Positions 2,984 to 26,731 of a stretch of 64,000 nt of DNA are shown piece after piece (the stretch's first letter is position 1; the number at the start of each line of letters is the position of its first letter). The notes beneath the pieces are model-generated. The model did not search any database, was not told where the DNA came from, and saw only the letters and a program-made list of their open reading frames with translations. The position numbers were made by a program, and so were the translations under genes. This DNA is from Olsenella sp. An290 (GTDB taxonomy: Bacteria > Actinomycetota > Coriobacteriia > Coriobacteriales > Atopobiaceae): assembly GCF_002159535.1 (NCBI RefSeq), contig NZ_NFIU01000001.1, forward strand, positions 124,001-188,000. Reading direction: 5' to 3'.

Positions 2984-3038
2984 ACGCGGCCTCTGCCTCA
3001 ATGTCTCCACGCAGCGGAGCGCGGAGCGAGGAGGCAGC

Positions 3039-6517: not shown

Positions 6518-6567
6518 GGCTCTCCTTTCTTTCTGGCCATCCCAAACGATGAAAAGGCAGACCCGGC

Positions 6568-6583
6568 CGTGTTGCGCAACACG
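6568..6583. promoter_or_regulatory. GTTGCGCAAC palindrome, copy 4
   Basis: A 16-bp perfect palindrome (CGTGTTGCGCAACACG) 78 bp before the vWA gene, in the divergent spacer with the FtsW-like gene (51 bp from its start), so it could act on both directions. Confidence 0.6.
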
Positions 6584-6661
6584 CGGTCGGGCCGTCGGGA
6601 ACGCTCGTTTACAACACGGGGCGCCAGGCGGGCCGCCCCGATCCGAGAGAAGGGAACCGCA

Positions 6662-7396
6662 ATGTTCAACGAGACCCCGCGCTTTGGCAGCCAGCCCCCC
6701 GTCGCCACGGACAAGGACCACATGTCCGTGCTCATCGCGGTGGACACCTCCGGGTCCGTGGAGGGCGACGCCATCCGTAACATCAACGCCAACCTCAACA
6801 ACTTCAAGAGGATCGTCTGCGAGGACCCCGTCGCGGCCAAGTGCGTCGACGTCTGCGTCATCGCCTTCGACGACAAGGTGCGCGTGATCCAGGACTGGTG
6901 CCCCATCAGGGACATGCAGAGCTTCGAGCTCTCCTGCGGCGGCTGCACCGACCTCAACGGCGCCGTCCTCACGGGCATCCAGAAGATCCGCGAGCGCAGC
7001 CGCGAGTACGTGGAGCGCGGCATCGTGGAGCGCAAGCCGTACCTGATCGTCATGACCGACGGCTTCGACACCGTGACCGGCAGCGTGGACGAGGCGGCCG
7101 ACCTGGCCTACCAGCGCATCACCGGGAACAAGATGAAGCTCTGGTTCCTCGGCTTCGGCCCCTACGACAAGGAGACGGCCTCCAAGCTCTGCCGCGCCAA
7201 CGGCAACTGGTGCTTCGAGGTCAAGAACGGCGACTTCAACTTCAACGACTTCTTCGACTTCGCCGCCAACAGCGTCAAGGCCGTGAGCGTCTCCGCCCCC
7301 GGCCAGGACGTGCAGGTGGACACCAACGTGGGCACCCCGCAGAGCAACGTGGCCATGACGCCGCTGCCCACCGCCAACGCCTGGCTGAACGGCTAG
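6662..7396 (+). CDS. TerY-like vWA-domain protein
   Basis: The 244-residue protein is a single vWA domain with a complete metal-ion-dependent adhesion site: D28-T-S-G-S32, T96 in the G-C-T-D-L loop, and D133 in V-M-T-D-G. A Cys-rich patch (C61, C65, C80, C92, C95) is also present. There is no signal peptide or membrane segment, so it acts in the cytoplasm. With the PP2C and the kinase that follow on the same strand it forms the vWA/phosphatase/kinase set described as the TerY-P triad in comparative genomics and as an antiphage module (Gao et al. 2020). The vWA protein is thought to be the scaffold or phosphorylation target. The ATG at 6662 has a GAAGGGAAC ribosome site. Confidence 0.88.
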   Translation: MFNETPRFGSQPPVATDKDHMSVLIAVDTSGSVEGDAIRNINANLNNFKRIVCEDPVAAKCVDVCVIAFDDKVRVIQDWCPIRDMQSFELSCGGCTDLNGAVLTGIQKIRERSREYVERGIVERKPYLIVMTDGFDTVTGSVDEAADLAYQRITGNKMKLWFLGFGPYDKETASKLCRANGNWCFEVKNGDFNFNDFFDFAANSVKAVSVSAPGQDVQVDTNVGTPQSNVAMTPLPTANAWLNG

Positions 7397-8733: not shown

Positions 8734-8745
8734 CGTTGCGCAACG
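8734..8745. promoter_or_regulatory. GTTGCGCAAC palindrome, copy 5
   Basis: Core at 8735-8744, 12-bp perfect palindrome, 59 bp before the kinase start and 21 bp after the phosphatase stop. The kinase may thus have its own regulated promoter inside the triad. Confidence 0.6.
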
Positions 8746-8804
8746 CGCCCACCCGGCGCGGCGGACGCTGTTCCCGTCACGCGCCGACGAAAGGAGATCG
8801 CGAG

Positions 8805-10304
8805 ATGATCGTCTACGACCAGAGCGGGACCAAGCTCGAGCTCACGACCAAGCTCGGCGGAGGTGGCGAGGGCAGCGTCTACGCCATCGCGGGCCACCCC
8901 AAGTTCGTGGCCAAGGTCTACTCCGCGGACGCGTCCGCGCACCGCGAGAAGATCGAGGCGATGGTCTCCATGGCCGACCAGGTGGGGAGGATCCCCGCCC
9001 TCGGCACCGTCGCCTGGCCGATGGCGGCCCTCTACTCGGACGCCGCCCGCACCGCGTTCGTGGGCTTTGGCATGTGCTGCGTCAAGACCAGGCACCGGCT
9101 CGAGGAGCTCCACGAGTACCCGGCGCCCGCTGGCATGCGGGTCACGCAGGACCAGAAGGTCGACTTCCTGATCGAGCTCTGTGACATCCTCGCGGCGCTG
9201 CACCAGATCGGCCAGATCGTGGGCGACTTCAACAACGAGAACGTCATCATGTGCGAGAGCGGCCGGCCCGCGCTCGTGGACGCGGACTCGTTCTGCGCCC
9301 GCGTCGGCGGGCGGACCTATCGCTGCGAGGTCTTCAACGACGCGATCGTGGCACCGGAGATCAGCCGCGCCGCCCGCGCGGCCGGTGGCGGCTACGCGAG
9401 CTGCCCCGAGGGCGTGTTCACGAGCCACGCCGATGACTACGCCCTCGCCGTGCACGTCTTTCGCCTGCTCATGAACGGCGTCCACCCCTTCACGTGCGCG
9501 GCCGTCCCGCTGCCCAACGGCTCGGTCCCCGCGCCGGTGAAGACGCTCGTGCGCGTGGAGCGCGGCGAGACGCCGTTCTTCAAGAAGGTTCCCGGCGTGC
9601 GGGTGAGCCCCATGGCCCCCGACCTCAAGGCGTTCCCGCCCTACCTGGTCGAGCTCTTCCGACGTGCCTTCGTGGACGGCCACGCCAACCCCTCCTCCCG
9701 TCCCACGGCGACGGAGTGGAAGGCCGCCCTCACGCGCTACCGCGGCGAGCTCGTGCGCTGCCCGCACGGCCACTGGCACTGGAAGGACGCCTCCTCGTGC
9801 CCGTACTGCGAGGCTGACGCCCGCAACGCCAAGGCCTCCAAGGCCGTCGCCAAGCGACCCTTTGTCCCCAGCCAGACGCCTCCGCCCTTCCGCGGCTCCA
9901 ACCCCGCCGCGCGAGCGGCCAACGGCGTCGCCGCCGCGGTTCAGGCGCCCTCGGCCGCGCAGGCGGCCGGCCTTGGCCTGCCGTACTGGGCGGCGACGCT
10001 GCTCATCGGCGCGTGCGTGTTCACGCTCCTTGGCGTGGTGCTGCCGGTCTGCGAGGCGCTCGGCGTCTCCCTTGGCCTCGGGTACCCCGACTGGCTGCAG
10101 GTGGCCTTCCTCGTCTCCGCGCTCGCCGGCGTCGTCGCCTACAACCTGCTGTTCGTCGAGCGCGTGGAGACCAAGAACTACTTCATCGCGGGGGCTGCCT
10201 CCGCGGGCGGCATGGCAGCGCTGGTCGCCGTGTTCATCGCCCTTGCCATCGCGCTCGTGCTCTTCGTCGTCGGCCTCCTCATCTCCGTGCTCTGCGACTC
10301 CTAG
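8805..10304 (+). CDS. TerY-P type protein kinase with zinc ribbon and membrane tail
   Basis: The ATG at 8805 has an AAAGGAGA ribosome site. The 499 residues start with a kinase fold: glycine loop L-G-G-G-G-E-G-S-V-Y at 17-26, the ATP lysine in A-K-V-Y at 36-39, catalytic loop V-G-D141-F-N-N-E-N146-V, and V-D-A-D-S-F near 158-163 in place of DFG. The catalytic loop lacks the usual His-Arg but keeps Asp and Asn, as in the TerY-linked kinase branch. A zinc ribbon (C-P-H-G-H and C-P-Y-C, about 318-336) matches the TerY-C element. After a Pro/Ala linker there are three hydrophobic segments from about 385 to 499, so the kinase is tethered to the membrane. It completes the triad with the genes at 6662 and 7459. 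Confidence 0.87.
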   Translation: MIVYDQSGTKLELTTKLGGGGEGSVYAIAGHPKFVAKVYSADASAHREKIEAMVSMADQVGRIPALGTVAWPMAALYSDAARTAFVGFGMCCVKTRHRLEELHEYPAPAGMRVTQDQKVDFLIELCDILAALHQIGQIVGDFNNENVIMCESGRPALVDADSFCARVGGRTYRCEVFNDAIVAPEISRAARAAGGGYASCPEGVFTSHADDYALAVHVFRLLMNGVHPFTCAAVPLPNGSVPAPVKTLVRVERGETPFFKKVPGVRVSPMAPDLKAFPPYLVELFRRAFVDGHANPSSRPTATEWKAALTRYRGELVRCPHGHWHWKDASSCPYCEADARNAKASKAVAKRPFVPSQTPPPFRGSNPAARAANGVAAAVQAPSAAQAAGLGLPYWAATLLIGACVFTLLGVVLPVCEALGVSLGLGYPDWLQVAFLVSALAGVVAYNLLFVERVETKNYFIAGAASAGGMAALVAVFIALAIALVLFVVGLLISVLCDS

Positions 10305-11475: not shown

Positions 11476-12759
11476 GTGGCGACCCGACGCACGACGATTG
11501 AGGGGCACGACTGGAGGAGGGCCCTGCCCGAGGCCTCCCCGGACGCGGTCGTCCGGCTTGCCGGCACGGTCGCGGGCGCGCCCGCGCGGCTCGAGCTCTC
11601 GCGGGACGACCTCGCGACGCACGTGCTCATGCTCGGCCCCTCGGGCACGGGCAAGACCAACGTGCTGCGCGAGGCGCTCCGTCAGGTGAAGGCCTCGCTG
11701 CGCCCCGGCGACACGATGTGCGTTTTCGACCCCAAGGGCGACTTCCTCCCGCTGCTCGACCCCGCGCGCGACCTTGCCGTCCCCGGTGGGGCCGACGCGT
11801 GGAACGTCTTTGGTGACGTGGTGGCGGACGGCTGGGACGAGGAGAGCGTCGCCGCCAACGCGCGGGAGATCGCGCAGACGGTCTTCGCCGACGCGATCGA
11901 GCGCTCCTCGAGCCCGTTCTTTCCCAAGGCGGCGCGCGACCTCTTCGCGGACGTCCTGGGCGCCCTCAGCGTCTGTTCCGAGAAGGACCGTGCCTTCAGG
12001 GAGAGGAACCTCAACAACCGGGCGCTGCGCGACTACCTGCTCGGCGCCACGACACCCGGGCTCACCGACTTCCTGAGCAGGGAGCGACGCTTCTCGGGCT
12101 CGCTCAAATACCTCGGCGACGGTGCGTCCGAGCAGGCGCTCGGCGTGCTCGCCGAGCTCCAGGAGGCCACCTCCGCGCTCTTTGCGGACGGCTTCGCCGG
12201 TCGCGGGGGCTTCTCCTCTCGCCAGTTCCACCGCGCGGGCACGGGCTCGCTCTTCGTGGAGTACGACATCGCGCGCATGGCCACGCCCGCCTACCAGGTG
12301 ATCATTGACTCCCTCCTCAAGGAGGCCCTGACAGGGAGGCGCTCGGGCGCGAGCACCTACGTGGTGATCGACGAGCTCCCCATGCTCCCGCACCTGCTCT
12401 TCCTGGAGCGCGCCCTCTCATTTGGGCGGAGCCAGGGCGTGAAGGTCATCGCCGCGGCCCAGAGCGTGGAGCAGCTCTATGGCGCCTACGGTCGCGACGC
12501 CGGCGCGGCCCTGGTCTCGGGCTTCCAGACGCTCGTGTGCTTCCGGCCGAGCGACGAGGCCACGCGCGCCTGCGCGCGGGAGCGCTGCGGCGGGCGCCTC
12601 GAGGAGCTCTCCTACCTCTCCGCCTCGGGCCGGGCGAGCTTTGAGCTGCGCGAGGCGCACGTGGTGGAGGACTGGGACCTCGCCGCGCTCGGTCGCGGGG
12701 AGGCCTTCGTCTTTCGCCCGTTCTCCGGTCCGCTGAGGTTCTCGTTTGGGAGGTACTAG
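11476..12759 (+). CDS. VirD4/TraG/HerA-like P-loop ATPase
   Basis: The 427-residue protein has Walker A G-P-S-G-T-G-K-T at 54-61, an F-D-P-K-G-D strand just after, typical of VirD4/TraG and HerA-FtsK ATPases, and Walker B Y-V-V-I-D-E-L near 296-302. A Q-S sensor (A-A-A-Q-S near 330) and the C-terminal strand order also fit. There is no N-terminal membrane anchor, unlike conjugative coupling proteins, so it is a soluble motor. Start is the GTG at 11476 with an AAGGAGG site. It is the first gene of a tight eight-gene row to 27993, and the next gene looks like its degenerate partner. Confidence 0.82.
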   Translation: MATRRTTIEGHDWRRALPEASPDAVVRLAGTVAGAPARLELSRDDLATHVLMLGPSGTGKTNVLREALRQVKASLRPGDTMCVFDPKGDFLPLLDPARDLAVPGGADAWNVFGDVVADGWDEESVAANAREIAQTVFADAIERSSSPFFPKAARDLFADVLGALSVCSEKDRAFRERNLNNRALRDYLLGATTPGLTDFLSRERRFSGSLKYLGDGASEQALGVLAELQEATSALFADGFAGRGGFSSRQFHRAGTGSLFVEYDIARMATPAYQVIIDSLLKEALTGRRSGASTYVVIDELPMLPHLLFLERALSFGRSQGVKVIAAAQSVEQLYGAYGRDAGAALVSGFQTLVCFRPSDEATRACARERCGGRLEELSYLSASGRASFELREAHVVEDWDLAALGRGEAFVFRPFSGPLRFSFGRY

Positions 12760-14038: not shown

Positions 14039-15106
14039 ATGAAGGAAATCAGGGACTACGTGGCGCAGGGGCAGTTTCGCCCGCACCGGCCAAGGAGCGG
14101 GGCGCGCGCGGACGCCTACGACGCGCTCGTCGACGGGCTGCTGGGCTACGAGCGGCGCATCCGCTTTCCCGCCGGCGTGGCGATGCACGACGTCGACGGA
14201 CTGCTCGACCTCGTCAAGATCGACGTGCCCGAGCTCTTCTACGTCGGTCCCGGCAACGTGATGTGCGTGGGGCCTCAGGGGCGCCCGCTCTCCCTCACGC
14301 TCTACCCGACGTATCGCCTGGGCGAGAAGGACGCGATCGCCCTGCTCGACGCCATGGGGCGCGAGGCCGAGGAGCTCGTGCGCAGGGCGGATGAACTGGA
14401 CATGCTGCACCCCTGCCATCCCGGCGCCCGCTGCGGGCTTGACCCCTTTGACATGCTGCTGCCGATACACGACTGGCTCGTCCGGCGCTTCTCGTACGAG
14501 GACGCCGGCCAGCCGCACGCGCATGAGGCTCCCGGTCCCCTGGTCTACGGGAGGGGCGTCTGCGAGGGGGTGGCCAAGGCGATGAAGTACCTGTGCGACC
14601 GCTGCAGACTCGCCTGCGCGGTGGTCTCGGGTGTGGCCCGGGACTCGGGTGACGGCTCGACGGGGCCTCATGCCTGGAACCTGGTTCATGCGGGGCCGGG
14701 CGGCACGGGCTACTGGACCAACGTGGACGTGACGTTTGACGCCGCGCTCTCCCACGGCTTTGTCCGGCACGACTACTTTGGGCGCTCCGATGCCGAGCTC
14801 TCGGTGAGCCACCGGCGAGACGAGCCGAGCCCCCTGCCCCTCGGCGACGGCTCGCTGCGCTACTACGAACGAGAGAGCCTCATGGCGACCTCGGCGTCCT
14901 GTCTCGGCAAGATCGTCGACTGGCACCTCCCCAGGGCGGGCGGGGTCGAGTTCGTCATGCCCTCTCTGTGGGAGGGGCGCTCCGAGCTCGACGCCGCCGT
15001 CCACCACGGCGTGGGCAAGAGCGCGGAGCTCATGGCACGCGGCGGCGCGTACACGCTCTGCCCCAACTACGACCTCTTGGTCTTTGGCCTGGAGGTGGCG
15101 TCGTGA
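14039..15106 (+). CDS. Transglutaminase-like cysteine protein
   Basis: The 355-residue protein has the papain/transglutaminase triad in correct order: C175 in G-R-G-V-C-E-G-V-A, H211 in G-P-H-A-W-N, and D230 in N-V-D-V-T-F-D. The first 130 residues are helical and unassigned. No signal peptide or membrane segment is visible, so it works in the cytoplasm, as a protease, an amidase or a cross-linker. It starts 6 bases after the preceding gene and ends by overlapping the PP2C start (GTGA). In bacterial signalling islands such domains often process partner proteins, so a role as regulated effector is plausible. Confidence 0.83.
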   Translation: MKEIRDYVAQGQFRPHRPRSGARADAYDALVDGLLGYERRIRFPAGVAMHDVDGLLDLVKIDVPELFYVGPGNVMCVGPQGRPLSLTLYPTYRLGEKDAIALLDAMGREAEELVRRADELDMLHPCHPGARCGLDPFDMLLPIHDWLVRRFSYEDAGQPHAHEAPGPLVYGRGVCEGVAKAMKYLCDRCRLACAVVSGVARDSGDGSTGPHAWNLVHAGPGGTGYWTNVDVTFDAALSHGFVRHDYFGRSDAELSVSHRRDEPSPLPLGDGSLRYYERESLMATSASCLGKIVDWHLPRAGGVEFVMPSLWEGRSELDAAVHHGVGKSAELMARGGAYTLCPNYDLLVFGLEVAS

Positions 15107-15795
15107 GCGGGGCCGTTGTCGCGCCCGAGGCTCGCACGATGCGCACGCGGGACTTCGAGATGGCCTTCGCCACGCGGCGGGGCTCGCGGCGCACGGTCAA
15201 CCAGGACCGGGCGCGCCTGTGCGAGCACGGGCTCTGCGTCATCGACGGCATGGGCGGCGGCGAGGCGGGGGAGGTCTTCGCCGAGCTCGCGGCCAACCGG
15301 GTGGAGAGGTCGCTTGCGCTGGGCGAGGGGCCCGAGGGCTCCCTCGCGGGGGCGAGCGCCGACCTCGCGACGCTGCGGCGGGCGGTCCTCCGGGCGCCCG
15401 GTGGGGCGACGGGGTGCGTCTGCGCGTTTGACGAGGGGGGCTCCTGCCAGCTTGCGGCGCTCGGTGACGTGCGCGCCTTCCTCGTGGGGGAGGATGACGT
15501 CGAGGAGGTCTGCGAGCTAGGCAGCTCCTCGCGGGGCTACCTGGGCGACGGCCGTGCCTGCGCGCCTCGCTCCTGCGTCCTTGCCGAGAAGGGCCTGGGC
15601 TCGCGGGTTCTTCTCGTGTGCTCGGACGGGTTCTGGCGTTACGTGACGGCACGCGAGCTCGTGAGAATCGTGCGTGCGGCCCCTTCCCTCGAGGCTGCGG
15701 CCGTGCGCCTCGTGGGACTTGCCCGGTCGTGCGCCTCCCCGGACGACGTGACCGTGGCGCTCTGCCGACCGCTTGCCGAGCTGCCGAAAGACTGA
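15103..15795 (+). CDS. Second PP2C-family phosphatase
   Basis: Starts at GTG 15103 overlapping the previous stop; 230 residues, close to the minimal PP2C core. Motifs in order: R-T-V-N-Q-D35, V-I-D48-G-M-G-G-G, A-L-G-D-V-R in the middle, V-C-S-D-G-F-W and the closing D-D-V-T. The T-T-x-x-x strand is short and the domain lacks the tail of the phosphatase at 7459. It precedes the FHA protein and the kinase-like/RyR gene, so this operon has its own set of phosphosignalling parts next to the TerY-P triad. Confidence 0.85.
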   Translation: MSGAVVAPEARTMRTRDFEMAFATRRGSRRTVNQDRARLCEHGLCVIDGMGGGEAGEVFAELAANRVERSLALGEGPEGSLAGASADLATLRRAVLRAPGGATGCVCAFDEGGSCQLAALGDVRAFLVGEDDVEEVCELGSSSRGYLGDGRACAPRSCVLAEKGLGSRVLLVCSDGFWRYVTARELVRIVRAAPSLEAAAVRLVGLARSCASPDDVTVALCRPLAELPKD

Positions 15796-15842: not shown

Positions 15843-18284
15843 ATGGCAGCAAAGAATCACATCGCCCTGTATTACGCGAGCGATTCGCTGGGAAAGTTTC
15901 TGAGCAGCAGCTACGGCAAGCGCGATCCTAAGAAGTCCGGGCCCGTCAAGAACGTCTGGGAGATGGTGGGCGTGCGCCCGAGCGAGGGCATGGGTCTCTC
16001 CGACCAGATGCTCACCAACGGCAACTACTTCACCTGCTACGCCTGTGCGGACGCGTATGCACTGCTCAGCGCCGAGCGAGAGGATGTCCCTGAGGCCTGG
16101 GGCACCCTGGAGGAAAGGAGGCGCGCCTACGCCGATCTCCTGAACAAGGCCAAAGGCAACTTCTCCCTCGCGATGTACAGGAAGGCGGAAGGTGCCTCTC
16201 CCAAGAAGCGCGACCAGTCGGGGCGGTTCAAGTACGACAAGCTTGACCTGGAGCGGATTGACGAGAAGTTCAGCAACGAGTGGATCTTCCCCAGGCTCTC
16301 TAAAGATGCGGTAAAGGAGTTGGGCGAAGCCGTTGAACGAGGTGCGGAGGCTGAGCAAGGTTCCGTCGATGCGGCGCTCGGCCGCATCGCCGAGCGGATT
16401 CTGGACGAGGCGAAGTTCTACGAAGACCTCTACGAGAATCGCGTCCCACTGGTAGAAGAGGCTTTTGGCGAGGATAGCGATGAAAGAAGGAGGCTCGACT
16501 GCTTCCGTACGCTGCTTCCCATCTGGGTTTACACCCAGTGCCTTCACGCCAACTCTTCCGACAATGGACTGCCGCTCAATCTCTACAACGTTGACTTCTG
16601 GGACTACGAGGATGACGTTCGGAGCCTTGTCGACGAGCTCTGCAAGCGTTTTGAGGATGACAAGGTTTCCGGCGGTAGGCGCGTGGAGGAATTTAAAACG
16701 CGGGCACTGGAGCTCGCGAAGAGCTGCGCGTTCGACATGGAGAAGATCGAACGGGCCTTTAGGAGCGGGCGTCAGGCGAAAACCCCGACAATCCGAGAGC
16801 TCTTCGAGGGGGGCCTAAACGGCAAGCTCCGCGTGCCCGACTGGGCGGAGAGGCGTGGGGAGCTCATCTGGCTCATCGTCGTCTCCTGCTGCGTGAGCAT
16901 TGAGCGAGCGCTGGAGGTCATGGATCGCAAAACCTCTGACTGCCTTGAGGGGGACGAGTCACTGCTTGACTCCAACGAGCTCGGCCGCGGTTCTGGCAGT
17001 CTCCCGCTGCACGTCAGCGAAGGGAATCGCGACCTTCCCTCCGCGAACCTCAGGCTCGCGGCCGATGCTCCCGAGGACGAGATCCTTTGCGTGCTCGGAC
17101 ACGCCTACGAATCTCGCTTCTGGGAGGTTGTGTGGCTGGAAAGCGCACACAGGCTTCTGGAGGACTTCTTCATGCCCGAGGTGCACCTTGGCTCTAGGGA
17201 AGAGGTCGAGGTCGGAGAGCCGAGGGCCCTTCTCGCCCGTCTCTGGGAGACGGCGGAGTCGTTTGGACGGCGCCCGGTTGGTCGGACCAGTCCTCTTCGC
17301 GGCCTTTCGCGCGTCGAGGCGGTTGCCTCGGGGAGATTGGACGTGGTGGGTGAGCTGCGCTCAGCCCTCGCCTCGAGGCTCTTTGACTGCCTCGAGAGGT
17401 CCTTCTCGCGAGACGAGGGGGCGGGACACGGGCCCGAACTCGTCCTGGGCCCCTCTAGAGGGAGTGGGGGTGAGGGCACGCTCATCGGGGCCGTGTGTGC
17501 CGCGGTCGACGATGTCTGTGAGCTAATCTCCGATGCGTGGAAGATGCAGATGGAGCGTGAGCTTGCGGAGGAGCGGGAGCGCATCGCGCAGATGGACGTT
17601 TCCGCGGAAGAGCGTTGGGAGCTCGAGAAAGCCGCTGAGAGCCGGAGCAAGCGGAGGTCTCCCAACGTGAGGAGCGCCATGCTCAAGCGCCTCTTGAGAG
17701 ACACGCGCGGGTATTTCGAGGAGCAGGGCGTGTTGGGCTGGGGCTCCGAGCGGGTGGGAGGGGAGCCCTCACAGCTCGAGACTCTTTTCCGTCAGTTGGA
17801 ACGGGTGTATGAGGAGAAGTACGGATGCGATCCGTCCATGCGTTTCGCCCTTGCGCGGGTGAGGAGGGAGCTGAGCGGGAGGCTGAAAAAGGCCATTCGT
17901 CTCGATGACGTGTGGGATGTCGTGGGGAGGGTCCTCGCGAGCGTCGCCGATGCGGAGAAGGAGGCCTTCCTCCCGCTGTCCCTGCCTGACGTTTCCGCTC
18001 GCCATGCGGTCCTCTACCTCGAGGGTGGCAGGCTGATGGTCGCGGATGCCGGCTCGCTGAACGGCACCGTCGTGATTCGCCGGCCGTCCGACGGAACGAC
18101 GGTGAGTGATGAGCCTCGCCGTTTTGTCCTCAGGGGTGCCGAGCGCACGAAGGCCGAGCGGGTCGTTGAGGCGACGGACGGGCTGGGGGGTGTTCCGGAG
18201 CCGGCCGACGCGCTCCGGCTCCGCAGGGGTGACGTCATCCGGCTTGCCGGTCGTACGGCAATCGGGGTGGGGAATCGCCTATGA
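15843..18284 (+). CDS. Large protein with C-terminal FHA domain
   Basis: 813 residues from ATG 15843, which has a GGGGAGGAG ribosome site; an in-frame ATG at 15795 overlaps the previous stop (TGATG) and would add 16 residues. The first 700 residues are mostly helical with no domain I know. The last 100 (about 710-813) look like an FHA phosphothreonine-binding domain: V-S-A-R-H (the S-x-x-H core), then D-A-G-S-L-N-G-T, then L-R-R-G-D-V-I-R-L-A-G. The canonical G-R strand before the core is not obvious. It would read the phosphorylation state set by the kinases of the island. Its stop overlaps the next start by four bases (ATGA). Codon use is slightly less GC-rich than in its neighbours. Confidence 0.8.
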   Translation: MAAKNHIALYYASDSLGKFLSSSYGKRDPKKSGPVKNVWEMVGVRPSEGMGLSDQMLTNGNYFTCYACADAYALLSAEREDVPEAWGTLEERRRAYADLLNKAKGNFSLAMYRKAEGASPKKRDQSGRFKYDKLDLERIDEKFSNEWIFPRLSKDAVKELGEAVERGAEAEQGSVDAALGRIAERILDEAKFYEDLYENRVPLVEEAFGEDSDERRRLDCFRTLLPIWVYTQCLHANSSDNGLPLNLYNVDFWDYEDDVRSLVDELCKRFEDDKVSGGRRVEEFKTRALELAKSCAFDMEKIERAFRSGRQAKTPTIRELFEGGLNGKLRVPDWAERRGELIWLIVVSCCVSIERALEVMDRKTSDCLEGDESLLDSNELGRGSGSLPLHVSEGNRDLPSANLRLAADAPEDEILCVLGHAYESRFWEVVWLESAHRLLEDFFMPEVHLGSREEVEVGEPRALLARLWETAESFGRRPVGRTSPLRGLSRVEAVASGRLDVVGELRSALASRLFDCLERSFSRDEGAGHGPELVLGPSRGSGGEGTLIGAVCAAVDDVCELISDAWKMQMERELAEERERIAQMDVSAEERWELEKAAESRSKRRSPNVRSAMLKRLLRDTRGYFEEQGVLGWGSERVGGEPSQLETLFRQLERVYEEKYGCDPSMRFALARVRRELSGRLKKAIRLDDVWDVVGRVLASVADAEKEAFLPLSLPDVSARHAVLYLEGGRLMVADAGSLNGTVVIRRPSDGTTVSDEPRRFVLRGAERTKAERVVEATDGLGGVPEPADALRLRRGDVIRLAGRTAIGVGNRL

Positions 18285-19807
18285 CCGAGGACCTTATCGA
18301 CGGCGGTCCCGTGAGCTTGGCCCCTGCGCACTCCGTCTCCTTCGATGGCGGCTACTTCCTCTTTGCCGAGCCTCTTCCGTCCCGTGGGCAGGCGCGGTCG
18401 AGTTCGGGGAAGAAGTACGTGTATCGCGGCGTTTACGTGCGCACGTCGGGTGCGCGCGAGATTCGTACGCCCGCGTGCGCGGTGTATTTTGCGCGCGAGA
18501 CGGGAGGGATTGACTATGCGCGGGAGCGCCTGGGACTTGCCTTGGGCGGTGCTCTGGGAGTGGGCCCCCGCACGCTGGAGGCGGACGCGCGGCGTCGGCT
18601 GCCGGATGCGGGGGACGGCGAGGAGCCGCTTGCGCTCCTGATCGAAGAGGATGTGGGCGTGAGCCTGGAAGACGCCTTGCGCGGTGCGCCAATCCCGCTG
18701 TTCTCCGAGGGGCGCGAGCATGACGGGATTCCGCTTCCCGACCCTTCCACTCCGGAGGGCGAGCGGGTGGCGCACAAGATTCTCTTTGACGTGCTATCCC
18801 AGGTGCAGGTTCTTCAGGGGCAGGGGCTCTACCACCGGGACCTGCGCTCCGCCAACATTGCCCTACGCTCGTGGGGGCCTGGCGCGGAGGGCATCCGCGC
18901 AACCTTGCTCGACCTCGAGTTTCTTACGGGGGAGCATCGTGGGTGGGTGCATAGCGCGGGCTACTACGACCGACTCTTCGGTGAGGGTGGGCTTGTCCCT
19001 TTGGGTCGTGAGCCCACACTGCTCGAGCAGGACCAGGGGTATCTCGCCGTCGTAGCGGCGGAGGTCCTGAGCGGGCACCCCGTTGAGGAGCTCCCCGATG
19101 ATACCGTGCTCTCCATATTGAGCTCGGCCCGTGCGCCCTTGAGAGTGGGGCCGGGCGGCGTCTTCGTGCGGAGGCTCGTGTTGCGCGACGTGTGGCAGGA
19201 GGCGCGCCTTGCGGGCCTTGCCACGGCGCGGGAGACGTACGGACACCTTTCGGAGTGGGCCGTCTCGCTGACGGACTACCAGACTCGTCATGCAGGTTAC
19301 GTAGACACGCTGGATAGGATTAGACTTGAGGGGAGCGTCGAAATGATTTTGGAGCAGAGCACGGTGGAGCGCCTTTCGCGTGCCATCTTCGAGAACTATC
19401 GGGAGCACCTTCGCCGTGACGGCAAGGAAGTCAAGTACGAGCGCTACGACGATCAGCCGGAAGACTACAAGGAGTCCTGTTTCGCGCAGGCTCGCTCGTA
19501 CTACGACAAGGTTCGTCTCCTGGGCTACGAGATCGTTCGCGAGGAGGAGTGCGACGAGGCGCGTCGCGTGAGGGCGTTCACCGACGACGAGGTTGAGTTC
19601 CTTGCGCACGAGGAGCACGACCGCTGGGTCGAGGAGCGCGTGCGCGCCGGCTGGGTGTACGGCCCGGTGAAAGACGAGGAACGGAAGGTCTCCCCGTACC
19701 TGGCTCCCTGGTCCGAGCTTGACGATGGCATTCGCGAGTACGACCGTGACCCCGTGCGGGAGATGATCGGGCTCGTGGAGTCTGCGGGACTCGCGATTAT
19801 TCGTTAG
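18281..19807 (+). CDS. Kinase-like domain fused to a RyR domain
   Basis: 508 residues. The N-terminal part is kinase-like: a catalytic loop L-Y-H185-R-D187-L-R-S-A-N192-I-A is intact, and L-L-D-L-E-F-L about 20 residues later takes the DFG position with D-L-E. No clear glycine-rich loop or ATP lysine can be seen in the first 100 residues, so activity is uncertain. The C-terminal part from about 364 (E-R-L-S-R-A-I-F-E-N-Y) through F-T-D-D-E-V-E-F-L-A-H-E-E-H-D-R-W ... G-W-V-Y-G near 432-462 matches the ryanodine-receptor (RyR) repeat domain found in prokaryotes. RyR domains are thought to bind small ligands, possibly nucleotides, so the protein may sense a signal and hand it to the phosphorelay. 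It overlaps the FHA gene by four bases. Confidence 0.8.
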   Translation: MTEDLIDGGPVSLAPAHSVSFDGGYFLFAEPLPSRGQARSSSGKKYVYRGVYVRTSGAREIRTPACAVYFARETGGIDYARERLGLALGGALGVGPRTLEADARRRLPDAGDGEEPLALLIEEDVGVSLEDALRGAPIPLFSEGREHDGIPLPDPSTPEGERVAHKILFDVLSQVQVLQGQGLYHRDLRSANIALRSWGPGAEGIRATLLDLEFLTGEHRGWVHSAGYYDRLFGEGGLVPLGREPTLLEQDQGYLAVVAAEVLSGHPVEELPDDTVLSILSSARAPLRVGPGGVFVRRLVLRDVWQEARLAGLATARETYGHLSEWAVSLTDYQTRHAGYVDTLDRIRLEGSVEMILEQSTVERLSRAIFENYREHLRRDGKEVKYERYDDQPEDYKESCFAQARSYYDKVRLLGYEIVREEECDEARRVRAFTDDEVEFLAHEEHDRWVEERVRAGWVYGPVKDEERKVSPYLAPWSELDDGIREYDRDPVREMIGLVESAGLAIIR

Positions 19808-19870: not shown

Positions 19871-22800
19871 ATGAGCAAGACCACGACGAGCTACGGCCTG
19901 ACGGCCGACTTCTCCCGCTGCGCCTGGGAGCTGCGCGACCGGATGCACGACAAGGGCATCCAGGTCATCCAGCTCACCAACCTGGTGGGCGCGGACGGTC
20001 TCTGCGGGCCGGGGACGTACTTCTCGGACCGCTACAAGTCGGCCAAGATGCTCGGTCGCAAGCTCTCGCTCTTCCTCGAGGACGTCATCGACGCTTCCGA
20101 GGACGACATCCTGTGCGTGGGATATTGGGAGACGCCTGCGCGGACGAGGGTCTATGCGCTCTTTGCCTACGAGGGGGCCGAGGATCCGGGCAGGGAGCTC
20201 CTGAGCAGCCTGGGGAGGGTCCTCGCGTGTACGGCCGAGAGGACGACGAGTGCGCTCTCGCTCGAGGGACTCTCCGAGTCGTCTGAGGTAAGTTCGGTGC
20301 TGGGCGGTCTTTACGCGTACTTCTCGGGGGACTGGGGAAAGGTCGCCCAGGCGATCTCCTCGATGGGCGCGGTGGGCATCGAGGCGCAGCAGTCCGGAGG
20401 CGCCGTTCGTCACGTGGTGAGACCTCTGGGTGAGGGGGGGCCTTCTGCGGTGGAGCACGTGGCAAAGCCCGCGCCCGCGCCCCCGAGCGTCTCCTCGAGC
20501 GGAATGGCGAACGTGGGCGGCGTCATGATACCGGGGTATCCGCCGCACGCGTTCGTGAGCGAGTCGTCGGCGGCGGTCAGGCGCCGGGTGACCGAGCTCA
20601 CGTCGCGGCTGCGCGTGGAGGACTGGCCCCGTCGCTGCGAGGAGCTTCGCTCCCTCACCGGCCACGAAGGGGCGAAGGAGGAGGCGTGGCTCGCCATCGT
20701 GGCGAAGCAGATCTCGGAGTCGCGAGTGGTTGAGCCCGGCCCCGGCGTCCCCGGCTACGTCCGGCTCCCCCTGCTCTTCGACCGCGGTGGTCGCCCGCTC
20801 TTTGCCATCCTCAGGGCGTCATCAGATCCCGCGGACGTGCGCCCCTCCCTCGTGGCGATCATGGACCACGAGGGTGCCGCCGCCAACGTTCCCATCGGCG
20901 TGGCACCGACGTTCGACCCGACCTTTCACGTGCTCGACCATCTCTCCTATCTGAACAACCGGGCGTCACGTCTTGCGCGCTCCGTGGGGAGGGACGACCT
21001 CGAGGCCCTCGCCGCGTGCGTGGCCGAGGGCCGGCCCATTGCCGCGGACGCGCTGGAGAGGATCTCCGAATACGCGCGGACGTGGTCCGAGATGCGCAGC
21101 GCGCTCGAGGGGGTCGGCCGACCCGACGCTCTGACCCTCGATAAGGTGGGGGAGCTGGTCGACGACTGGTTCGCAAAGGCGTCAAGGCGGCTCGACTATC
21201 GCGAGGCGGTGCGCGAGGTGGTCGAGGAGTGCTCGGAGCGCTTCAAGGCGGTCGTCCCCTGGGGACACCCGGTGATCGTTGCCGACCTGGCACGGCTCGA
21301 CGACCCGGATGACCTCAGCGAGCAGGGCGTCAGAGAGCTCGAGGGTGTCTACGAGGCGCTCGTTGACGAGATGGCGCGCGACGACCCCTACGAGAGCCGG
21401 GGCCTGCAGCTCGAGAAGGTGGAGAAGCACCTTGGTCCCCTGGGCGCCATGTTCGAGATGCTGCGCGCCGCGTTCGCAGCCAATCCGGTGAGCTTGGGAC
21501 GACTCAGGCACGCAAACGCTCCGTGTCCTGCCGCTGTGGGTGACGCGCCCGTCGCGCCGGAGCCGGAAGACGAGCCTGCGGACGACTTCGCCGATTTCGC
21601 GGAGCGCGTCGAGCGAGAGGTGGGGGCAGCCACGGAGCTTGCCCCGGAGAGCCAGCCCATCGTTCCTCTCGCCGTTTCGGCGTCCACCCTCGACGAGGCA
21701 CCCCTTCTCGACGAGGTGCCCTCGTTCCGACCCGATACGCCTGCGCAGCCGCAGGAGCTCGAGGCTGACGAGCTCATCCAGATCGAGACATTCGCCGCCT
21801 CGGCGGCGATTCCTTCGCCAATCGCGGAAGAGGAGGTCTCCTCCGATTCCGAGCCGGATGCCGGCCTGCGAGATCGGTTCCCCGGCGAGTATCGCGAGGG
21901 ACGCGAGACGGGGGTCGCCTGCAACTTCTCCCTTCTCTTCGAGCTCGGCTCGAGGAGGGTCTGGCCCCGCCTGGCGCCGCGCGAGGGAACGGACGTGTTC
22001 TCGCGGTGCGCGCTCATGGGTTCCCGTGACGTCGCCGACGTGCTCGACTGCGCGGAGGAGGCGCTGCGCGACGGCGTGAGGCCCGCCCATGCGTATCGCA
22101 TCCTTGATCCCGTCCGCGGATCTGTGCCCGACGACCCGTCGGCCCGGGACTACCAGAGGTTCTGGTTTCTCGCCGCGCTCGCCGATCGCCTGGGCTTCGC
22201 CGCGGGCGAGGTCTCGTCCTCCCAGCTGCTCGAGGACTGCGAGTACCTCATGCTCTGTGACGCGCCGCTCTCCCTGGGGCCGGGAGCCGCCGCGCTTCTC
22301 GCCGAGGCGTTCCTGACCGCGGTCACGCATCACCTCTCCGGCAGGACCGTGGGGATGTTCCGATCCCTTCTCGACCTTCTTGACGAGAAGGACGTCCAGA
22401 GAGCGGCTCTCCAGGGGCTCTCTTCCGGCCTCGGGAAGCTCCTCTCCGAGCTCGAGAAGAACTTCGCCTACAACCCCACGACCGACTACTCGGCCATGAC
22501 GCTCCCTGCCCTTGGGGCCACGCGCGTGCGGGAGCAGCTCGACGCGCTCTCCCGCGAGGCTGTTCGAAAGCGCGACATGCCTCCTTCGACCAACTACCTG
22601 CCCGCGAAGATCTTCTGGACGGGCATGGCGAGCAGGGAGGAACCGGAGTCCCGCCTCAAGGTGGGCGTTCTTCTGGCAGACATGGCGAGCGGGGGCACGA
22701 GCGCCCGCGTCGACCGTCGTGGGCTCAGGGCGCTCAGGGATGACCTTGACGACTCCCTCGACTCCGACCATAAGAACCTGTTCTGGACGGCGCAGGGGCA

Positions 22801-25800
22801 CGGAGCCTACGAGCGGATCGTGGGCCAGGCTCGCCAGGCGCTCATCTCGTCCATACGCGAGGTGTACGACCTCTACGAGCGCTATCTCGGCCTCCTTGAC
22901 GAGGGCGCGACCAAAACGCTGCCCGGTGCGAGCGCGTCGGTCGCCGCGGAGCTCGCCGGCGTGGACAGGGACGTGCTCAGCTCCCTGCGAGGCCTCAACG
23001 CAGAGCGAAGGGGCGGGTGGGACGCCCTCGTCGAGCTCGTGCTGAGCCTGCAGGCGGACTACCCCTTCGAGCGCCTTTCCGACGACGAGCCGCTTCCCGC
23101 GGACTTCTCGGGAGACGCGCTTCCCGCCGACCTGCGGACGGAGCCGGGGCGCGCCCTCGTCGAGATCATGCTCCATGCGTCCCTGAGGCGGTCCGATGGG
23201 AGGCTCGAGGTTCCGAACTCCGGGCAGCTGGTCGAGCGGGTCGAGAATGAGCACGAGGCCCTTGCCCGCGCGTTCACGTTCAACGCGGTCGGCGAGAGGC
23301 TCTACGGTCTCCTCAGCGCGACGCTCGCCCGGACGCTTGGTGTGGCGGACTCCGTCGGCGGTGCCCCGCAGGGTCGGGATGCGACCAGCGCCGTGCTTGC
23401 GGGTTGGACGCTCGACCTGGTGGGCTCTCGGGTCGACGCGCTTGGCCGTGAGCTCATCTCGCGCGCGGCACGCCTGCTCGAGGAGGGGTCGGGGCTTGAT
23501 CCCGCGGCGCGCTCGCTCCTGGAGGACGCGGTCTCGAGCGGTGACCTGGCGCGCGTCTTTGCCTACGCGGACTACGAGGTCGACAATGCGGTCCTCTCCC
23601 TCTCGGACCCTCCGAGGAGCTACGAGGACGAGTTCTACGGCGGCGCGGACGGCTCGCTCGGCCTCATCGACCCTATCTGTCGCGGGCTGAGCGTCAACCC
23701 AAGGCAGTTTGGCTATCGCAACCTCCCGTTCGATCCCGAGCTGACCAATCCCTATGGGGAAGACCGCGCCGACCTCGCCCTCTCTGTCTTCAACGAGCTT
23801 CGACGGGCCCTCAGCAGCCTCAAGGCCTGCGCGAGGGAGCATCGCCTTCCGCTGGACGGAGCCTCCGTCGTCACGGCGGGCGAGGGGGTCTCGCACTCGA
23901 CGGTGCAGGCACTGGACGCCTTCTCCCGCCACCTTCGCACGCTCTTCTCGGTTCTTGGTTTCGAGGATGCCGAGGTGGTCCCCTTCGTCAGCCATGCCGA
24001 CGTCGCGGCGCCGGTCTCCTCGTGGCGCCTGCGATTCTTTGCCCGTCCCTCCGAGACGGACTCGCGCGGGGAGCTGGTGTGCCCGCTTCGGGAGTTCGTC
24101 ACCCTTGTCGACCCGCAAGACGGCGTCGGTCCGGCGCGCGTGGAGTACGAGGTCGAGGTGTTCACCAGCTATGACGCGCTCGAGCGCGCCTTCCTGAGGG
24201 AGATGCCGGACGGTGGCGCCAAGCGCCTCGCCCTCCATCTCGCCCTTTCCGAGTCCGACCTGCTCACCCCGCAGGGCAGACGCGACCTCATGCCCGCCCG
24301 GAGGACTCCGAGGAGCCTGAGGGCGACGGGCATGCTCCTGTTGGACGAGGTTCTTATCGCCTATCTGGCGAGCGTGCCAAGGACGCGCAGGAGCAACGAC
24401 CGTCTCTCCGCGTTCTTCCGCTGCGCGCTGCCCTTCACGGCTCCCCATCCCTATGGCGACGACGTTCGCAAGAGCGCGTCGTCGGGCTTCCGGGGTGGGG
24501 CGGGCGCGTGGCAGCCGCCCCTGTTCTACGGGCGCGGGACCATCTTGCAGCAGCTCAGGACCAGGACCGGAACCACCTTCATCTACGGTGCCCGTCGCAT
24601 GGGCAAGACGTCGATCCTCCGCGAGCTCGCCGCCGAGGAGCGGGCGAGCCTGCATGATCCGCAGCAAGCGTCAGGCGAGCGCGTCTGCGTCTCCTACGTC
24701 GATGCGATGGGCTTTGCCGGTATCGACCTCGACAACTTCTGGATTCAGTTCGTGGGACGCGGGTTTGTTCGCGACGTTCCCCAGTTCGAGAGCGCTCGGA
24801 GCGCGGACGAGGTGCGAAGGGTCCTGACCGAGGCCTCGGCGGAGGCGCGCTTCTACCTGCTCATAGACGAGGCCGACGACCTCCTGCGCTATGACTCGTT
24901 CCTGCGCGTGGGCCATCCGCGCAACGCCATCATGAACAGCCTCGTCGAGTACATGCAGGAGAACGAGAAGTTCCGCGTCATCCTGGGCGGACTTCACGCC
25001 ACGATGCGCTACGCTGACGAGCGGGCGCGTTCCAACCAGACGAGGGGGCAGCTCGGGCATGCGGTGGTCGTGGGGCCGCTCTGGGAGGGTGGTGCTTACG
25101 AGGACGCCGTGCGTCTCGTGCGCGAGCCGCTCAAGACGATGGGCTACGTCCTGCGCGACGAGGACGTCCTCAAGATCCTGAGCAAGGCCTGCTACTTCCC
25201 CAACCTCATCAACATCGTCTGCGAGCAGCTGCTCGTCACCCTTCGACAGCAGCGTCGCCCCAGCTCTCCCGGAACGTTCGTGCAGGTCCCCGGAACCACC
25301 GTCGACACGGTCCTGCGCGAGGCGTCCGGAGCGCTTGCCGAGAAGTTCCAGCTCACGATCGAGCTCGACCCGGGCTACGACGTGGCAATCTCCTCCCTCA
25401 TGTCCCTGGAGGCCGACAGCGCCGCCCAGGGCGCCTGCCGTCGCGCGTTCACGGGGGATGAGCTCCTACGGCAGGTCGTCGACGTGTGCGTGAGCAAGGA
25501 CGGCGGCGGCTCCGTGACGGAGCGAGACCTCGCCGACTCCGGCCTGCCGGATGGCCTGGGGGGTGACGTCGACGAGCTCGTGCGCTTTGGGATACTCAAG
25601 AAGGTCGACGGGCTCGTCATGCTGCGGGATGGCTCCATGCGCGCCCTCGTGGGTCGGCAGCTGGAGCCCGAGAGCGCCCGCATGGCGCTTCTGGCGGCAT
25701 GTCGGCGCTACCTCGACCGCGACGTGCTCGAGGGCCGCTTCGATGATGCCGAGGCAAGAAACGTCGTCCCTGTGGATGGCGTGACGATCTACTCGCCCGT

Positions 25801-26731
25801 CAACGCCCGTGACGTCGGGGCCATCGAGCGGGCTCTTAGCGCCTTTGGCCACTGCGTGCTCTCCCTCGGTGACGTTGCGGGAGCCGACCTTCTGGTTGGC
25901 AGGTTTGACGAGCTGCTCCCAGGACTCTGTCATGGGTCGCGTCCCACGGTCATCGATGGCTCCGAGCTTGGGGCTCTTCTTGATGCCGGCCTCACCGAGG
26001 GGCTCGTGGTCGCCACAGATGGCTGGGGGGCGGATGATCTGCGCGCGCTTCGAGAGAGGGGAAGCTCGCCTCTCGTCGGGTCCGGCGTGTTGCTCGTGGC
26101 GTCGCCGCGCACCGTCTGGGAGCTCAGGAGCGAACTTACGGACGCCGATGACGTCGTGTCTCCCACCGCTTGGAGCGACTGGACCTGCCTTGCGTGGGTG
26201 CGCAGCTACACCGAGCACTTCGAGAGGAGCACCGCGGGCACCATCCAGCCGCGCGCGCAGCGCTCCCTGGCGGCGCTGCTGAAGGACTACTGCGGCGGAC
26301 AGGCCGGTGCGGTCGCGCGGGTCGTCCGGGGCATGTCCGGGGGCGGCTCGTCCTTCTCGCTGCGAGAGGAGATGAGGTCCTTCTCGCAAAGCGCGCTTGA
26401 CGGGGGCGACTTTGCCTGGGCGCTCGACGGGTCGCTTGCCGGGGCTCGGGCGATCAGGCTCGTCTGGGAGCAGCTCGCGGGATTCGCGGACCCTGGGGCG
26501 GAGCATCCACTCGACGCGTGCTACGGCGTGTGCGACTGGCTCGGGCTCATGGGCCCCGAGACCGGGCTTTCAGAGTCCGACCTGTCTGCCGTGCTCGACT
26601 GGATGGCCCAAACGGGGCTCGCGCGACGTGTTGCCTCGGATGCGGGCGACCTCTTTGAGATGCGTGACTGGTTCATGCGCGCGCTTCTCGCCCGCATGGC
26701 AGGCGGCGAAGAGGAGGGGGAGGCGTCATGA
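19871..26731 (+). CDS. Giant 2286-residue STAND-like ATPase
   Basis: By far the largest gene of the window. Residues 1-150 form a small alpha/beta domain, 190-230 a Pro-rich linker, and 580-680 an acidic Pro/Glu/Ala linker; the rest up to 1550 is mostly helical with no recognised domain. A P-loop NTPase domain lies at about 1560-1800: Walker A I-Y-G-A-R-R-M-G-K-T-S near 1570-1580 and Walker B F-Y-L-L-I-D-E-A-D-D near 1660-1670. The G-A-R-R-M-G-K-T form is typical of STAND-like ATPases that switch between an inactive and an oligomeric active state after sensing a trigger. A winged-helix-like and a further alpha/beta segment follow. No membrane span is visible. It starts 63 bp after the RyR gene with a GGAGAAGG site, and its stop overlaps the next start. 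Confidence 0.82.
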   Translation: MSKTTTSYGLTADFSRCAWELRDRMHDKGIQVIQLTNLVGADGLCGPGTYFSDRYKSAKMLGRKLSLFLEDVIDASEDDILCVGYWETPARTRVYALFAYEGAEDPGRELLSSLGRVLACTAERTTSALSLEGLSESSEVSSVLGGLYAYFSGDWGKVAQAISSMGAVGIEAQQSGGAVRHVVRPLGEGGPSAVEHVAKPAPAPPSVSSSGMANVGGVMIPGYPPHAFVSESSAAVRRRVTELTSRLRVEDWPRRCEELRSLTGHEGAKEEAWLAIVAKQISESRVVEPGPGVPGYVRLPLLFDRGGRPLFAILRASSDPADVRPSLVAIMDHEGAAANVPIGVAPTFDPTFHVLDHLSYLNNRASRLARSVGRDDLEALAACVAEGRPIAADALERISEYARTWSEMRSALEGVGRPDALTLDKVGELVDDWFAKASRRLDYREAVREVVEECSERFKAVVPWGHPVIVADLARLDDPDDLSEQGVRELEGVYEALVDEMARDDPYESRGLQLEKVEKHLGPLGAMFEMLRAAFAANPVSLGRLRHANAPCPAAVGDAPVAPEPEDEPADDFADFAERVEREVGAATELAPESQPIVPLAVSASTLDEAPLLDEVPSFRPDTPAQPQELEADELIQIETFAASAAIPSPIAEEEVSSDSEPDAGLRDRFPGEYREGRETGVACNFSLLFELGSRRVWPRLAPREGTDVFSRCALMGSRDVADVLDCAEEALRDGVRPAHAYRILDPVRGSVPDDPSARDYQRFWFLAALADRLGFAAGEVSSSQLLEDCEYLMLCDAPLSLGPGAAALLAEAFLTAVTHHLSGRTVGMFRSLLDLLDEKDVQRAALQGLSSGLGKLLSELEKNFAYNPTTDYSAMTLPALGATRVREQLDALSREAVRKRDMPPSTNYLPAKIFWTGMASREEPESRLKVGVLLADMASGGTSARVDRRGLRALRDDLDDSLDSDHKNLFWTAQGHGAYERIVGQARQALISSIREVYDLYERYLGLLDEGATKTLPGASASVAAELAGVDRDVLSSLRGLNAERRGGWDALVELVLSLQADYPFERLSDDEPLPADFSGDALPADLRTEPGRALVEIMLHASLRRSDGRLEVPNSGQLVERVENEHEALARAFTFNAVGERLYGLLSATLARTLGVADSVGGAPQGRDATSAVLAGWTLDLVGSRVDALGRELISRAARLLEEGSGLDPAARSLLEDAVSSGDLARVFAYADYEVDNAVLSLSDPPRSYEDEFYGGADGSLGLIDPICRGLSVNPRQFGYRNLPFDPELTNPYGEDRADLALSVFNELRRALSSLKACAREHRLPLDGASVVTAGEGVSHSTVQALDAFSRHLRTLFSVLGFEDAEVVPFVSHADVAAPVSSWRLRFFARPSETDSRGELVCPLREFVTLVDPQDGVGPARVEYEVEVFTSYDALERAFLREMPDGGAKRLALHLALSESDLLTPQGRRDLMPARRTPRSLRATGMLLLDEVLIAYLASVPRTRRSNDRLSAFFRCALPFTAPHPYGDDVRKSASSGFRGGAGAWQPPLFYGRGTILQQLRTRTGTTFIYGARRMGKTSILRELAAEERASLHDPQQASGERVCVSYVDAMGFAGIDLDNFWIQFVGRGFVRDVPQFESARSADEVRRVLTEASAEARFYLLIDEADDLLRYDSFLRVGHPRNAIMNSLVEYMQENEKFRVILGGLHATMRYADERARSNQTRGQLGHAVVVGPLWEGGAYEDAVRLVREPLKTMGYVLRDEDVLKILSKACYFPNLINIVCEQLLVTLRQQRRPSSPGTFVQVPGTTVDTVLREASGALAEKFQLTIELDPGYDVAISSLMSLEADSAAQGACRRAFTGDELLRQVVDVCVSKDGGGSVTERDLADSGLPDGLGGDVDELVRFGILKKVDGLVMLRDGSMRALVGRQLEPESARMALLAACRRYLDRDVLEGRFDDAEARNVVPVDGVTIYSPVNARDVGAIERALSAFGHCVLSLGDVAGADLLVGRFDELLPGLCHGSRPTVIDGSELGALLDAGLTEGLVVATDGWGADDLRALRERGSSPLVGSGVLLVASPRTVWELRSELTDADDVVSPTAWSDWTCLAWVRSYTEHFERSTAGTIQPRAQRSLAALLKDYCGGQAGAVARVVRGMSGGGSSFSLREEMRSFSQSALDGGDFAWALDGSLAGARAIRLVWEQLAGFADPGAEHPLDACYGVCDWLGLMGPETGLSESDLSAVLDWMAQTGLARRVASDAGDLFEMRDWFMRALLARMAGGEEEGEAS

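Follow-up and report, generated by a model that had tools for sequence, protein, structure and literature searches.

Does the gene at 18281-19807 encode a kinase that is switched by a small molecule and, if so, by which one? The gene lies in a 64,000-nucleotide stretch of Olsenella sp. An290 (contig NZ_NFIU01000001.1, positions 124,001 to 188,000), here called the window. A sequence-only reading had proposed a kinase-like domain fused to an RyR domain, as a direct link from a small-molecule signal to "the phosphorelay". Relatives of this gene often lie beside genes for receptor-like TIR proteins, so the fusion probably converts a nucleotide signal made by a TIR into phosphorylation of proteins. 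The reading that we favor, at about an even chance, is that of a Ser/Thr-type kinase, probably active, with Lys45 as its ATP lysine. Its RyR module would control it by sensing a messenger of the ADP-ribose (ADPR) or cyclic ADP-ribose (cADPR) type derived from nicotinamide adenine dinucleotide (NAD). The features of the gene are as follows, in window coordinates.

18281..19807, + strand: kinase-RyR fusion gene (open reading frame with ATG start, 508 amino acids)
18389..19180, + strand: kinase-like domain, about residues 37-300 (homologue profile against PDB kinases; hhalign; Pkinase matches in relatives)
18413..18415, + strand: Lys45, proposed relocated catalytic lysine in the glycine loop (family alignment pattern)
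18524..18526, + strand: Glu82, predicted alpha-C glutamate (invariant in 19/19)
18833..18856, + strand: catalytic loop H185-R-D-L-R-S-A-N192 (D187 and N192 invariant in 19/19)
18911..18913, + strand: Asp211, DFG-type aspartate in the motif D-L-E (invariant in 19/19)
19337..19804, + strand: two-repeat, R12-like RyR module, residues 353-508 (alignment to RyR3 Repeat12, 9ls7_D; profile matches)
19616..19744, + strand: predicted ligand pocket His446, Trp449, Ser471 and Asp488 (offset match to RyDEP H75, W78, H100 and D117)

The kinase-like domain and a putative relocated lysine

Taken alone, the window protein scored 10.4 bits against Pkinase (E 0.42), under the cut-off of 31.7, and it is therefore filed as kinase-like and not as a canonical Pkinase member. 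The family set comprised 19 sequences from class-level searching, the window protein included, and 16 of these matched Pkinase at E<=1 (best, 1.7e-5). A profile of the 19 homologues retrieved Ser/Thr kinases from the PDB, with a best E of 1.8e-6 (profile positions 151-271) and 1385 sequences at E<=10. In hhalign, the family profile aligned with eight ordinary Ser/Thr kinases taken from the searched genomes at a probability of 97.4 (E 1.3e-11, residues 73-272). Glu82, Asp187, Asn192, Asp211 and Asp251 are invariant in all 19 members and read as the alpha-C, HRD, catalytic-loop, DFG and alpha-F positions, while His185 and Arg186 vary within the family. The proposed fusion was thus borne out by the Pfam RyR match described below together with the kinase similarity of the homologue profiles, and the intact H-R-D...N loop of the sequence-only reading was confirmed.

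That reading had found neither a glycine loop nor an ATP lysine. The beta-3 lysine is indeed gone; it is replaced in 17 of the 19 members by Tyr, Phe, Glu, Val, Leu, Ile, Thr or Ala, with Tyr69 at this position in the window protein. A loop, S41-S-G-K-K45-Y-V-Y-R-G50, nevertheless became visible once the relatives were aligned, and with it a candidate lysine. Position 45 is Lys in all 17 proteins without the beta-3 lysine and Ser in the two that keep it (G076 and G307, in which that lysine lies one alignment column off); this count leaves out G281, whose kinase part has no N-lobe in its frame. Since G076 and G307 look related, the Lys/Ser exchange does not represent two independent events. Lys45 occupies the third-glycine position, two residues before the valine-like residue of the loop. 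It is the sole conserved N-lobe lysine in the 17 and is invariant in the 15 aligned kinase-RyR proteins. All 17 have Arg or Lys at the preceding position, 44, where G076 and G307 have Arg. The ATP lysine seems to have been relocated from beta-3 to the glycine loop, as in WNK kinases, and the domain may be active despite the loss of the beta-3 lysine. No WNK kinase appeared among the best 60 of the 1385 PDB matches, the 60 that were listed, which is no test of kinship.

The RyR module and its predicted ligand pocket

Pfam RyR (PF02026) matched residues 438-506 (E 5.3e-14, 52.7 bits against a cut-off of 27.4), and a phmmer search of the PDB with the window protein returned RyR1-3 and the Bacteroides RyR protein 3nrt. 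In an AlphaFold model of the full protein, residues 351-508 had block predicted local distance difference test (pLDDT) scores of 82-96. Comparison of this predicted model by VIA-align superimposed residues 353-508 on human RyR3 Repeat12 (9ls7_D) over 145 residues (Z 12.7, root-mean-square deviation 3.0), whereas 3nrt aligned over 83 residues only (Z 10.1). Moreover, profile A3, built from 20 such modules, matched RyR chains at E 1e-40. The first repeat (about residues 353-430) was absent from the Pfam output; from the 145-residue alignment, the RyR part therefore comprises two repeats and is roughly double the length of the Pfam match. Consequently, the C-terminal RyR repeat of the sequence-only reading is present and larger than it had stated. 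The C terminus is predicted to adopt the two-repeat R12 fold of human RyR3, and the comparison by which that reading proposed to refute an RyR fold instead returned RyR3 Repeat12. Its second ground for refutation, an N-terminal domain lacking a kinase fold, did not materialize either, as judged from the sequence profiles.

In the available part of a preprint on the phage protein RyDEP, the ligand-site residues are H75, W78, H100 and D117 (PMC13232231). We mapped these onto the window protein by offset only (+3, +25, +42). The alignment held 45 rows: 20 kinase rows, which are 18 distinct genes with G021 and G006 each present twice, 13 X-RyR genes (introduced below) and 12 others, with segments under 100 amino acids left out. 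His446 and Trp449 were found in all 45 rows. Position 471, which corresponds to H100 of RyDEP, a subsite outside the Pfam definition of RyR, varied among Ser, His, Asn and Thr. At position 488, the 18 kinase genes split into 11 with Asp, 5 with Asn and 2 with a gap. The 13 X-RyR genes all had Asn or Thr there, whereas 11 of the 12 others had Asp and the remaining one Ala; Asp was also found in the 11 viral relatives aligned, of 15. Retention of the binding residues together with frequent loss of one catalytic residue fits a sensor better than an enzyme. According to the accessible text of the same preprint, phage RyR domains bind or cleave 2'/3'cADPR, six of eight homologues were complexed with it, and the homologues tested, bar the DyoEdafos protein, did not cleave it (PMC13232231).

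The same fusion was sought elsewhere, as the sequence-only reading had suggested. Class-level searches gave 16 loci in 15 genomes, the window included, with a kinase part and an RyR module reaching position 488. A phylum search at E<=1e-8 returned no full-length kinase-RyR match outside the window's own genome, genus and order, and a scan of genome contigs with the first alignment added at least one distant locus (L022, in a metagenome-assembled genome of Candidatus Aminicenantes). No viral contig was confirmed with the full kinase-RyR alignment; the RyR alignment found 15 viral RyR loci. The kinase part had no match in plasmids. In phages, where RyR was the only part searched, 85 records matched it.

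RyR genes often lie beside TIR genes

PF02026 gave 52 matches in 46 of the 396 genomes of the class, and TIR_2 was sought in these 46 RyR-positive genomes and in five more with related kinases. A TIR gene lay within 10 kb of 28 of the 52 RyR matches, in 17 of 28 genera, against 0.8 expected from TIR density when TIR genes are assumed to be evenly spread over each genome. By comparison, two control families in the same 46 genomes had a TIR gene within 10 kb in 1 of 44 (HsdR) and 2 of 64 (AbiEii) cases, and two of these three control matches sit at RyR-TIR loci. TIR was present in 38 of the 46 RyR-positive genomes versus 9 of 42 RyR-negative genomes, the latter hand-picked and not random. Beyond this class, 8 of 16 RyR matches (E<=1e-8, in 14 genomes) had a TIR within 10 kb as judged by eye. 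All adjacency counts include related genomes and are not counts of independent events. The link to TIR genes points to messengers of the cADPR or ADPR type rather than to nucleotides in general.

Simple and elaborate loci

The architecture counts below cover the loci fetched. In the simple form, a gene for a TIR-propeller protein adjoins a gene for an X-RyR protein, in which the RyR module is joined to a domain of about 300 amino acids that we call X. This was seen at 11 of 13 X-RyR loci (L068, L070-L077, L079 and L020); the exceptions, L019 and L069, are on short contigs, L069 with a propeller piece at the contig end. These pairs of TIR-helix-propeller and X-RyR genes are a candidate TIR signaling system with domain X. 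In the elaborate form, eight kinase-RyR loci (G006, G278, G147 twice, G367, G250, G325 and G275) carry a TIR-propeller gene. All eight also encode an X-FHA protein, five have a PP2C gene in the DNA fetched, and VWA genes occur at G278, G147 (one of the two loci), G367 and G325. Since domain X is common to the X-RyR proteins of the two-gene systems and the X-FHA proteins of the kinase systems, FHA and kinase seem to be inserted between RyR and X. Of the 13 domain X members compared with Pfam, no two matched the same family at E<=0.1. The best PDB match of domain X was a weak one to apolipoprotein E (E 0.0033), which we took as a chance helical similarity.

One TIR-propeller family recurs at 20 loci. 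A membrane helix is predicted right after the TIR in all 20 proteins, with 4-8 Lys or Arg in the 15 residues before it (the TIR side) and 0-3 after it. This bias places the TIR inside and the propeller outside, if the helix prediction holds; the L054 protein has a second, weak membrane segment inside its propeller. A glutamate that we presume to be catalytic is invariant in the 11 TIR sequences aligned, which are those of 10 of the 20 TIR-propeller proteins and the short TIR of the window.

At another locus (G390, L065:3599-7492), kinase, membrane helix and propeller are joined in a single protein of 1298 amino acids, with PP2C and X-FHA alongside. This protein is a candidate bacterial receptor kinase that replaces the TIR receptor, and the swap suggests that TIR and RyR together form a removable wire between receptor and kinase. 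Three further arrangements were observed. An RyR module is fused to an AAA-type ATPase at L021:12124-14655 (G089), with a TIR 4 kb off on the same contig. Two adjacent RyR proteins directly precede the TIR-propeller gene at L078:8656-15631. At L054 and at L056, two X-FHA genes flank one TIR-propeller gene.

The cluster in the window

The kinase-RyR gene lies among the following genes of the window.

15843..18284, + strand: X-FHA protein, domain X with a C-terminal FHA (FHA E 2.3e-5; X common to X-RyR proteins)
15139..15795, + strand: PP2C-type phosphatase (Pfam PP2C E 4.2e-7; NCBIfam Stp1 model E 8e-18, below its cut-off)
8736..10304, + strand: second kinase-like protein, Kin2 (NCBIfam LanL model E 7.1e-8, below its cut-off; synteny, kept in G019 and G021)
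6383..7396, + strand: VWA-domain protein, start near 6662 likely (Pfam VWA E 8.1e-5, just under cut-off; synteny)
2320..2817, - strand: short TIR protein with zinc ribbon, 165 amino acids, no propeller (TIR_2 E 2.9e-10; no propeller match)
11476..12759, + strand: TraD/VirD4-like ATPase of the conserved cluster (TrwB_AAD_bind E 3.1e-28)
14039..15106, + strand: transglutaminase-like protein of the conserved cluster (Transglut_core E 2.1e-7)
19871..26731, + strand: very large protein with an AAA-type ATPase region (AAA_22 E 1.1e-5, just under cut-off)

The word "phosphorelay" did not survive this inventory: because the neighbors are PP2C, FHA, VWA and a second kinase-like protein, the setting is one of Ser/Thr-type phosphosignaling and not of a His-Asp relay. 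The tie between RyR module and kinase-like domain, by contrast, is well supported as an architecture.

The genes starting at 6383, 8736, 10665, 11476, 12746, 14039, 15139, 15843, 18281, 19871 and 26728 are kept in G019 and G021, the giant AAA protein in a shorter version in G021. The clusters of both genomes adjoin the same LytR and guaA genes as the window (guaA named by eye). The block at 6383-27993 is a cluster of about 20 kb, found in three species at the LytR/guaA site, with VWA, kinase, TraD-like ATPase, transglutaminase and giant AAA genes. At the same site, G006 carries TIR-propeller, X-FHA and kinase-RyR genes, and the G006 receptor has a TIR that shares 59-60% identity with the short TIR of the window. 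Besides the short one, the genome of the window (G000) has a TIR gene some 5 kb upstream of the window and another on a different contig. The window also encodes a SpoVK/CbbX-like AAA ATPase at 2907-4199 (NCBIfam SpoVK model E 1.2e-44, below its cut-off), a relative of which is found in G021 inside the cluster, between PP2C and transglutaminase. Near the short TIR, an open reading frame of 114 amino acids at 1886-2230 is similar to just a portion of a VWA domain (E 0.025) and is possibly a gene remnant.

Proposed pathway and alternatives

According to our model, in its fuller versions, a single-pass receptor with a cytosolic TIR, a membrane helix and a propeller presumably outside would sense a stimulus, and its TIR would make an NAD-derived messenger. 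The RyR module would bind this messenger and thereby switch the kinase on or off. The kinase would then signal to the neighboring X-FHA protein, whose FHA would read the phosphorylation, and domain X would act as the output; PP2C, where present, would reverse the phosphorylation. In its broadest form, the proposal is a prokaryotic cascade from membrane TIR receptor through cADPR-type messenger and RyR-type domain to a WNK-like kinase, in which the host-side receptor for TIR signals has the R12 fold of animal RyRs. We advance it tentatively, at somewhat less than an even chance.

Several observations weigh against this model. The kinase fold rests on sequence profiles only. A kinase-only model, made with no alignment, had a mean pLDDT of 34, and most of the kinase half scored below 65 in the full model; the alignment for the full model (window plus viral loci) covered the RyR part only and left the kinase half without depth. 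For residues 1-350, the VIA-align table listed no protein kinase catalytic domain, which is uninformative with a low-confidence model. In the pocket, the window protein has Ser471 where RyDEP has a phosphate-contacting His (H100). Three of the eight kinase loci with a TIR-propeller gene yielded no PP2C in the DNA fetched, and the absence of any RyR match or TIR from the G390 genome is to be read with its incompleteness, since this genome is 81% complete. Two genomes with an RyR module reaching position 488 (G281 and G357) have no TIR at all. Among kinase loci, 11 of the 16 whose module reaches 488 had a TIR within 10 kb, versus 1 of 4 without such a module (a weak TIR, G335), a comparison too small to prove co-loss. 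Three of those 11 (G292, G330 and G395) have PP2C with a TIR of another kind, and X-FHA was not found there. Finally, the clusters of the window, G019 and G021 contain no TIR-helix-propeller receptor; their nearest TIRs are 17 kb (the short one of the window), 23 kb and 28 kb away, respectively, and those of G019 and G021 were not matched by the TIR profile from the locus analysis. The messenger source of the window itself is uncertain; under the model, only the short TIR at 2320-2817 or a TIR elsewhere in the genome could fill this role.

The distance and small size of the window's TIR would also suit a module that senses ordinary adenine nucleotides (ATP, ADP, AMP or NAD), with the kinase reporting the energy state and the TIR neighbors not the signal source. 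Solved RyR3 Repeat12 structures hold AMP-PCP, ATP or ADP according to their entry titles. We consider energy sensing unlikely, given that TIR adjacency (28/52) far exceeds that of the controls (1/44 and 2/64) and that a single TIR-propeller family recurs at 20 loci. Alternatively, the RyR module may act as a glycosidase of the RyDEP kind and break down the messenger, so that it would be a brake instead of a sensor. His446 and Asp488 of the window protein do match the RyDEP catalytic pair by offset, but 5 of the 18 distinct kinase genes encode Asn at position 488, where every X-RyR gene has either Asn or Thr, and the other phage homologues tested showed no 2'/3'cADPR cleavage in the part of the preprint available (PMC13232231), which makes an enzymatic role very improbable.

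A different objection concerns the kinase-like domain, which could be a pseudokinase that serves as a ligand-gated scaffold without phosphotransfer. The beta-3 lysine is gone, G43 and G50 are the only glycines of the loop, and the DFG motif reads D-L-E. Against this, E82, D187, N192 and D211 are invariant, Lys45 is invariant where it is needed, and the PP2C and FHA neighbors suggest real phosphorylation; we regard a pseudokinase as quite unlikely. It is extremely improbable, in our judgment, that RyR and TIR genes are merely co-located in defense islands. Defense genes do cluster generally, and the window block and the smaller set of G006 occupy a LytR/guaA site common to four genomes. HsdR and AbiEii (two families), however, have almost no TIR adjacency in the same 46 genomes, and most of the few matches they do have fall at RyR-TIR loci.

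Significance and comparison with known systems

It has long been asked whether cADPR is a direct ligand of animal ryanodine receptors. The RyDEP preprint raises this question for the R12 domain (PMC13232231). The same two-repeat fold occurs here in a bacterial protein that also contains a kinase-like domain, often beside a TIR that putatively makes the ligand, and having fold and kinase in one protein with TIR often adjacent makes ligand, receptor and output testable in a few small proteins. If true, our reading would extend TIR signaling by a class of host-side receptors and by an output through phosphorylation, and it would supply a bacterial case of the WNK lysine swap.

A full-text literature search, which left most subscription journals outside its coverage and returned some sources in part, found no account of a host TIR-RyR pairing or an RyR-kinase, and the word RyR is absent from the main text of a survey of NAD-ADPr systems (PMC9503650). 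Earlier mention of TIR-RyR pairs elsewhere is possible.

The TerY-P triad is a similar kinase/PP2C/vWA gene set. GAP1-N2 systems likewise have kinase, PP2C and VWA genes close together, here those at 8736, 15139 and 6383, whereas the portion of that paper available makes no mention of an RyR kinase, X-FHA or TIR part (PMC7159879). As in Thoeris, a TIR gene goes together with a candidate receptor, encoded separately, for a signal of the ADPR type; the difference is that the TIR sits on a predicted membrane receptor and that the output is a kinase or domain X. Thoeris models gave no match on 10 proteins of the window cluster, the short TIR not among them. On seven proteins of related loci, one TIR (L075) weakly matched ThsB (E 0.0015) and ThsA had no match.

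In WNK kinases, the beta-3 lysine is replaced by a lysine in the glycine loop or beta-2 (PMC4718504, PMC5346417). The window kinase resembles them, by alignment only, in having a glycine-loop lysine in place of the beta-3 lysine; it differs in being prokaryotic, so that the likeness is presumably convergent, with no specific homology shown. RyDEP, as described in the available part of the preprint (PMC13232231), shares with the window protein the PF02026 domain, a matching His/Trp/Asp spacing and a tie to TIR-made cADPR signals. It is phage-encoded, blocks defense and forms a homodimer, whereas the window protein is host-encoded, has two repeats per chain and is fused to a kinase-like domain. 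Animal RyR3 Repeat12 is alike in its two-repeat fold over the whole module (Z 12.7), but there the fold is part of a calcium channel and has no kinase.

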